A DNA stretch of 32,525 nucleotides from contig JAQUKX010000009.1 of NCBI GenBank assembly GCA_028718865.1, forward strand, positions 1-32,525, read 5' to 3'. The notes beneath the pieces are model-generated. The model searched no databases and was not told where the DNA came from. It was given only the letters and a program-made list of their open reading frames with translations. This DNA comes from Patescibacteria group bacterium. Its GTDB lineage: Bacteria; Patescibacteriota; Patescibacteriia; UBA1558; GWA2-36-10. A program made the position numbers and the translations under genes. This document shows, piece by piece, positions 555-3,760 of the stretch (positions are counted from its first letter, which is position 1; every line of letters starts with the position of its first letter).

Positions 555-585
555 AACAAAAAAGATGAAATTATTTGCTTCATCT
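555..585 (-). terminator. Rho-independent terminator of the tRNA-Gln transcription unit
   Basis: Minus strand AGATGAA...TTCATCT hairpin (585-579 / 569-563) followed by TTTTTTG. Confidence 0.6.
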
Positions 586-592
586 GTTTATT

Positions 593-680
593 TGGCTCGC
601 CATGAACCATGACGGTTTGTGGCTAGTCATGTGTTATAACGGTATATGGCTCGCCATGAACCATGACGGTTCATGGCTCG
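593..680 (-). repeat. 27-bp tandem repeat, three full units plus a partial fourth that is the tRNA-Gln 3' end
   Basis: Units 593-619 TGGCTCGCCATGAACCATGACGGTTTG, 620-646 TGGCTAGTCATGTGTTATAACGGTATA (diverged), 647-673 TGGCTCGCCATGAACCATGACGGTTCA, then TGGCTCG 674-680. Confidence 0.85.
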
Positions 681-747
681 GGGGCAGGGACTCGAACCCC
701 GATTGACGGGACCAAAACCCGTTGTCCTACCATTAGACGACCCCCGA
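674..747 (-). tRNA. tRNA-Gln (anticodon TTG) with encoded CCA
   Basis: Minus strand TCGGGGG...ACGGG-TTTTGGT-CCCGT...GGTTCGAGTCC...CCCCCGA-G-CCA. Acceptor, anticodon and T arms pair; anticodon TTG. Confidence 0.93.
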
Positions 748-3486: not shown

Positions 3487-3760
3487 TTCTGTCCTCCTTG
3501 AGAAGGGTTTCCAGCACTCCTGACTTGCTTGCAAAGAACTTGATTTACCAAAAAAACACCTGTTTAAAGGCGTTTCCGGAGAAATCAAGCGACGTTTTAA
3601 GTCCTTGTTTTCAAAGCCGGTTACGCTACTAGCTCCCCGCTGTCCAAGCGTCCAAATACGGACAGGCGGCTCATTGCTTCATTGAAAAATTGGTATTTTA
3701 TTGTCAACAAAAATACATTAGCATATTTTGTTATTTTTGTCAACAATAGTGTAAATACAA

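Follow-up and report, generated by a model that had tools for sequence, protein, structure and literature searches.

The tRNA-Gln(TTG) gene in the window (the whole stretch of DNA that was analysed, 32,525 nucleotides) is followed by an array of three 27-bp units. The array probably goes back to a miniature palindromic insert that landed precisely behind the tRNA's CCA and was then serially amplified. A common anatomy, namely tRNA CCA, stem, loop, stem, TGG, short linker and CCA, recurs behind other tRNA genes of the source genome and of its relatives.

The array behind tRNA-Gln(TTG)

The tRNA-Gln gene (anticodon TTG) was assigned by ARAGORN and Rfam (RF00005) to the minus strand at 747-674. 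It ends in CCCCCGAGCCA, with the CCA encoded at 676-674, and its last seven nucleotides, CGAGCCA (680-674), are the source of the copies. In minus-strand order, this heptamer is followed by a spacer (673-654), CGAGCCA (653-647), a spacer (646-627), CTAGCCA (626-620), a spacer (619-600) and a final CGAGCCA (599-593), so that the array behind the CCA spans 673-593 and each unit comprises a 20-nt spacer and a 7-nt copy. Tandem Repeats Finder reports 593-680 with period 27, 3.3 copies and a score of 106. A search for CGAGCCA-N20-CGAGCCA with at most one mismatch returned 3 matches against 0.01 expected, and none of 100 shuffles gave 3. The exact 27-nt recurrence of the tRNA 3' end, noted in a preliminary description of this DNA, is thus borne out.

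The three units, all on the minus strand, differ in their state of preservation. Unit 1 (647-673, found by repeat detection and pattern search) consists of TGAACCGTCATGGTTCATGG and CGAGCCA, an exact copy of the tRNA 3' end. Its hairpin, GCCATGAACC-GTCAT-GGTTCATGGC (653-677), was detected as an inverted repeat and by folding; it is a perfect 10-bp hairpin (-18.3 kcal/mol, z -5.1), the 5' arm of which takes in the CCA (GCCA end) of the tRNA itself. Unit 2 (620-646), consisting of TATACCGTTATAACACATGA and CTAGCCA, is degenerate, with one mismatch in the heptamer, a strongly diverged spacer and loss of folding (-1.6 kcal/mol, z -0.4). Unit 3 (593-619), CAAACCGTCATGGTTCATGG followed by CGAGCCA, folds into an interrupted hairpin (-10.6 kcal/mol, z -2.0). 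The statement that the repeats copy the tRNA 3' end is therefore accurate for units 1 and 3, and has to be qualified for unit 2.

A TTGACA/TATTAT promoter had been proposed for the tRNA gene; the sigma-70-like site TTGACA-N17-TATTAT is found on the minus strand at 768-796, where it agrees with 11/12 consensus bases, and the assignment is a consensus match only. The proposed rho-independent terminator corresponds to an AT-rich hairpin on the minus strand at 556-586 (AGATGAA..TTTCATCT, then a T run). Its 8-bp stem does not satisfy the G+C rule of the terminator scanner. A terminator behind the array is nevertheless plausible, because the hairpin with its T run folds (z -2.3) and a homologous terminator-like hairpin is present behind the paralogous tRNA-Gln(CTG) (G000:C13).

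Related hairpins in the source genome

The source assembly (G000) comprises 877 kb in 24 contigs, is 98% complete, and yields 47 tRNA matches. In this genome, the 20-nt hairpin of unit 1 recurs behind the second tRNA-Gln (CTG), where it is present as one unit, and behind tRNA-Asn, and a relative of it is located behind tRNA-Ser. The copy tracks the 3' end of the host tRNA, being CGAGCCA for Gln, CGGAGCCA for Asn and CTCCGCCA for Ser. Since each host tRNA thus has its own version of the copy, the unit appears to be an insert accompanied by a duplication of the host end. A second hairpin family, CCATCCTTCGC..GGATGGCnnGCCA, is found behind tRNA-Tyr and tRNA-Glu, longer nested hairpin forms behind tRNA-Lys and tRNA-Thr, and a further hairpin behind tRNA-Phe.

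Two other tandem arrays were seen in the same assembly. Behind tRNA-Asn, a 54-bp x 2.9 array with the 20-nt hairpin repeats CGGAGCCA (L007:1207-1361, G000:C14); its units match each other at 100% and it is therefore very recent. Away from any tRNA, a 28-bp x 4.2 array (L008:1608-1725, G000:C2) combines the 20-nt hairpin family with CAGAGCCA, and is overlapped by small ORFs.

The 23S rRNA gene (L154:600-900, G000:C21) has an intervening sequence of ~130 nt, in which there are several CTTCG-type hairpins; most relatives have only a short loop at this place. A family-B hairpin at this gene was considered as a case with a clean empty site and was withdrawn, since the loop is variable in relatives and the intervening sequence in G000 is longer.

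Hairpins behind CCA in related genomes

The preliminary description had looked to conservation in relatives as a test. The exact sequence of the element is confined to the source species among 53 genomes, the sole other match being a different palindrome, and it is the layout that is widespread in the phylum. The same hairpin core was seen once in Omnitrophica RBG_13_46_9 (L082:273-297), ~130 bp from a tRNA-Val gene.

With a pattern composed of T arm, CCA, TGG and CCA, hairpins that follow tRNA genes were retrieved from many genomes of the class. Since many matches in generic CCA..TGG..CCA counts are due to chance (~0.07 per tRNA by simple arithmetic), only stem-filtered or family-specific counts are used here. 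Stems of at least 7 bp were found in 28 of the 143 pattern matches listed, against 0.7 in shuffles.

Of the best-defined family, termed family A (CCAYTCGAYT..CRCTYRTGG), 49 copies were counted in six genomes from the taxonomic family of the source, and none in the source genome itself. Among 30 distinct loci in these six relatives, 27 start exactly at a tRNA CCA and 2 at a tmRNA CCA; the remaining one starts at the CCA of another palindrome. Across the phylum, family A occurs in 49/380 genomes, and in a sample with one locus per genome, 23/30 start exactly at a tRNA or tmRNA CCA. The full element, which starts with CCA[CT]TCGA, is about 100-120 bp long and contains several hairpins, with inverted outer parts. 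Family A and B hairpins mostly carry an end of their own (e.g. CAAGCCA) rather than a copy of the host end, and duplication may therefore be a process separate from insertion.

Empty and filled sites

Two species of one genus, G008 and G017, differ at orthologous tRNA-Met genes. In one of them, CTACCA is directly followed by TTTTTTTACGGG; in the other, a family-A element comes first and then CTTTTACGGG, the sequence behind CTACCA reading TTCGAC...GGGCATTTACTTTTACGGG. At a second tRNA-Met, one of the two species likewise has an empty site and the other a site filled by family A. At the orthologues of tmRNA and tRNA-Asp (L203/L213 and L208/L209), the flanks are conserved but the family-A members between them differ, which looks like an exchange of the trailer. 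As judged by comparison of orthologous sites, which are empty or filled or hold different members, family A is an element that inserts behind CCA and turns over. For the array element itself, we infer insertion behind CCA; an orthologue of the tRNA-Gln gene was not found in G001, the sole congeneric genome, which is 69% complete. At a further locus in G017 (L304, G017:C31), a tRNA-Ile(TAT)-like gene is represented by its 3' half, which carries a family-A element; the gene is intact in the sister species G008.

The turnover at orthologous sites bears on the possibility that the repeats are a functional trailer RNA. In this explanation, hairpins in the precursor tRNA would act in 3' processing, exonuclease protection, pausing or termination, with the CCA held until the hairpin opens. 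The array does sit between a promoter and a terminator, and its predicted transcript folds very stably (z -5.0). Moreover, family A is found almost only at tRNA and tmRNA genes, and its stems show compensatory changes, with canonical pairs in 51/51 cases at position 4 and in 50/51 at position 9. However, such covariation would be expected equally of a DNA hairpin, and the two tRNA-Met pairs differ in the very presence of the element. Family-A occupancy shows no preference for particular tRNAs or isoacceptors, which led us to reject a tRNA-specific function, and only 9/47 tRNAs in G000 have hairpin trailers. The unit found behind tRNA-Gln also forms an array away from any tRNA, and unit 2 of the present array has lost its folding. 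A role as trailer RNA is thus unlikely, and less likely than insertion. For the same reasons, namely gain and loss of family-A trailers at orthologues, the array away from tRNA and the unfolded unit 2, the suggestions that the repeats serve as decoy 3' ends or as a small RNA find no support.

Copies of the host 3' end

The duplication of host sequence was quantified for 144 tRNAs from four genomes in the 260 nt downstream, with neighbouring tRNAs masked and with expected numbers computed from the 3' ends of other tRNAs. A copy of the own 3' end of at least 7 nt follows 21/144 tRNAs (2.0 expected), one of at least 10 nt follows 14 (0.12 expected), and one of at least 15 nt follows 11 (0.02 expected). 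The copies come in two sizes. Long copies (19-21 nt) start in the T loop and end at the CCA, most of them directly behind a hairpin, and the inserts that they enclose are small, at about 45-200 bp. In the short copies, which measure 7-8 nt and have their start in the acceptor stem, the enclosed sequence is a palindrome of 19-21 nt with TGG at its end. The array behind tRNA-Gln(TTG) is of the short-copy kind. Outside the source genome, short copies occur in G049 (at tRNA-Asn, with an unrelated hairpin) and in G090 (at four tRNAs, with another hairpin); both hairpins come from other families and are unrelated to that of the array. In nine short inserts from three genomes, 40/41 copy letters beyond the CCA are those of the host, and shuffling of hosts gives p 0.0001 overall and 0.014 within genomes.

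In principle, such copies could be attachment-site scars: integrative elements that enter tRNA genes by means of a tyrosine integrase would each leave a displaced 3' fragment behind. A displaced 3' tRNA fragment that extends from the T loop to the CCA is the signature of integrase islands used by Islander, which rejects candidates below 2 kb (PMC4383910). The long copies behind other tRNAs of the same genomes show this signature and fit tyrosine-integrase attachment fragments; at tRNA-Arg(GCG), G008 has an insert with a long copy and G017 is without it. The copies in the array, on the other hand, are only 7-8 nt long, start in the acceptor stem and enclose just a 19-21 nt palindrome, far below the Islander limit, and no integrase is present in the intervals of the array. 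Attachment scars may therefore explain long copies elsewhere, not the array behind tRNA-Gln(TTG), for which they are a very improbable origin. Of the four roles offered in the preliminary description, serial scars and slippage are the nearest fit, in so far as an insert-like unit lies exactly behind the CCA with a 7-8 nt host duplication; a scar of the integrase type is very improbable here, the copy being short and an integrase missing. Copies of 19-21 nt from T loop to CCA were noted at L288:1124, L294:619, L322:649, L324:616, L289:598, L301:564, L029:1498 and L024:1498; these loci are either tiny integrase-like scars or minimal inserts.

Amplification and proposed origin

The paralogy of the two tRNA-Gln loci of the source genome extends to the terminator, and the difference between them is exactly 54 bp, or two units. 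Tandem expansion or contraction must therefore have happened. Although a pairing of 32 nt is possible between units 1 and 3, their loops have the same orientation, and the units are direct repeats, so that copy-number changes of the kind displayed by the paralogues are possible. Perfect palindromes are typical products of template switching, and tandem arrays were found three times (27, 28 and 54 bp). Replication slippage or template switching might on these grounds be thought to have made both array and hairpin with no insertion at all. This is highly doubtful, because the same 20-nt hairpin is found behind tRNA-Gln and tRNA-Asn with different host-specific ends, for which slippage at one locus is insufficient. 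Slippage, one of the origins first considered, would account for the 54-bp difference between the paralogues and cannot give the same hairpin at Gln and Asn; as an amplification step, it is likely.

Insertion followed by amplification would proceed as follows. A shared mechanism would recognize the tRNA 3' end (the acceptor end with CCA) and place a hairpin element behind it. In the short variety, insertion would leave a target duplication of 7-8 nt, so that the tRNA gene stays intact. Starting with a single unit, the array would have expanded through slippage or through unequal recombination of its direct repeats, and unit 2, in the middle, would have decayed. The TGG foot may pair with the CCA of the tRNA or with that of the element's own end. 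By analogy with known single-strand systems, such pairing would fit a mechanism on single strands, with TGG as the guide for recognition of target and end.

In the wider picture, it is quite possible that miniature hairpins of 20 to about 115 bp move throughout the phylum by site-specific transposition to the CCA of tRNA and tmRNA genes. They would be driven by an enzyme, perhaps one acting on single strands, by which the acceptor end with its CCA is read, and in one variety the host 3' end would be re-created at the far border of the element. If true, they would parallel, in bacteria, the retroelements that target tRNA genes, but encode no protein of their own. A retroviral-type primer-binding site (TGG against CCA) was dismissed, as the sequence behind TGG repeats the acceptor end directly and is not complementary to it.

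A RAYT/Y1 transposase was considered as the mobilizing enzyme and rejected. In 140 genomes, the counts of such genes do not correlate with those of hairpins (rho 0.12, p 0.15), and CCA-hairpins are rare near Y1 genes, with 6 in 27 kb at distances of up to 500 bp versus 6 in 50 kb further off. Palindromes similar to CAACCCGTCGGGTTG flank the sole Y1-type transposase gene of the source genome (L143:9730-10435, G000:C17) and also occur within it; the flanking palindrome is different from the array hairpin. A phage origin was also discarded: no phage record matches the array beyond its tRNA part, and no viral contig has the hairpin. A loose family-A pattern hits five viral contigs; no annotated tRNA adjoins any of the hits, of which two or more look like chance.

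Relation to known systems

REP elements are defined by a GTAG/GTGG or CGTC-type tetranucleotide at the foot of a hairpin (PMC3733652, PMC6006769). REP and REPIN sequences, which are associated with RAYT (TnpA-REP, a Y1 HUH enzyme), resemble the present hairpins in being extragenic palindromes of 20-40 bp that sometimes form tandem arrays or doublets; a further resemblance is the short unpaired tail, CCA, of many of the REP families described (PMC3733652). The array element is likewise a short palindromic hairpin in non-coding DNA with several copies per genome. Unlike REP elements, it lacks the GTAG/CGTC tag, and its hairpin starts in the GCCA of the tRNA itself. A REPIN consists of two REPs that face each other and form a single long hairpin; units 1 and 3 base-pair over 32 nt although they are direct repeats, and inverted outer parts are seen in family A. 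CCA-hairpins also differ in number, about ten copies per genome and not hundreds, and in location, almost all being at tRNA or tmRNA 3' ends. In addition, no RAYT (Y1_Tnp) gene accompanies them with copies of the same hairpin on its flanks, and their numbers are uncorrelated with those of Y1 genes.

In IS200/IS605 and RAYT systems, guide and cleavage sequences pair with each other (PMC6006769), and the TGG at the hairpin foot could by analogy act as such a guide. The ends of IS200/IS605 elements share with the present elements a hairpin, a short linker, a fixed end (here CCA) and insertion 3' of a fixed short target (here also CCA). However, no transposase was found near the elements described here, and 7-8 nt of the host end are duplicated; IS200/605 insertions are not known to make a target duplication.

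Islander islands are similar to the array in having a 3'-end copy downstream of an intact tRNA in the same orientation. They differ in that the insert is 20 nt here and more than 2 kb there, in that the 7-8 nt copy falls short of the T loop, and in the lack of an integrase. Rickettsia palindromic elements, dRS3 and MITEs are, like the hairpins here, short selfish-looking palindromes that spread in reduced genomes, but they occupy many kinds of sites, including genes, whereas the present hairpins are tied to the CCA of tRNA-like genes. The rtT repeats of E. coli tyrT contain tRNA 3'-end sequence directly behind the tRNA, in a much longer unit of ~178 bp.

The array element starts exactly at the tRNA CCA, as would be expected of a member of the proposed class of CCA insertions. 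A survey of the open-access literature, with subscription papers outside its scope, found no precedent for hairpins that target the CCA of tRNA genes. Palindromes of small size are known, as are islands that target tRNA genes; palindromes tied to the CCA of tRNA and tmRNA, some of them with duplication of the host end, were not found described there. Large bacterial islands classically land at tRNA and tmRNA genes. In the reduced genomes considered here, a whole class of palindromes that have almost no capacity for coding appears to use the same genes, landing to the base behind the CCA, and some copies re-create the 3' end specific to their host tRNA. Duplications of tRNA 3' ends in such genomes are not by themselves markers of genomic islands. 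The hairpins raise the testable questions of what recognizes the tRNA 3' end at the DNA level, how elements without protein persist in genomes of ~1 Mb, and whether trailing hairpins alter tRNA maturation.

Other features of the window

Two further features of the window may be mentioned. A c-di-GMP-II riboswitch at 3606-3690 on the minus strand lies upstream of an ORF (3588-3076) without a Pfam match. On the plus strand, the ORF at 38-457 ends in a Por secretion C-terminal sorting domain, a type IX secretion signal that is unexpected in so small a genome.
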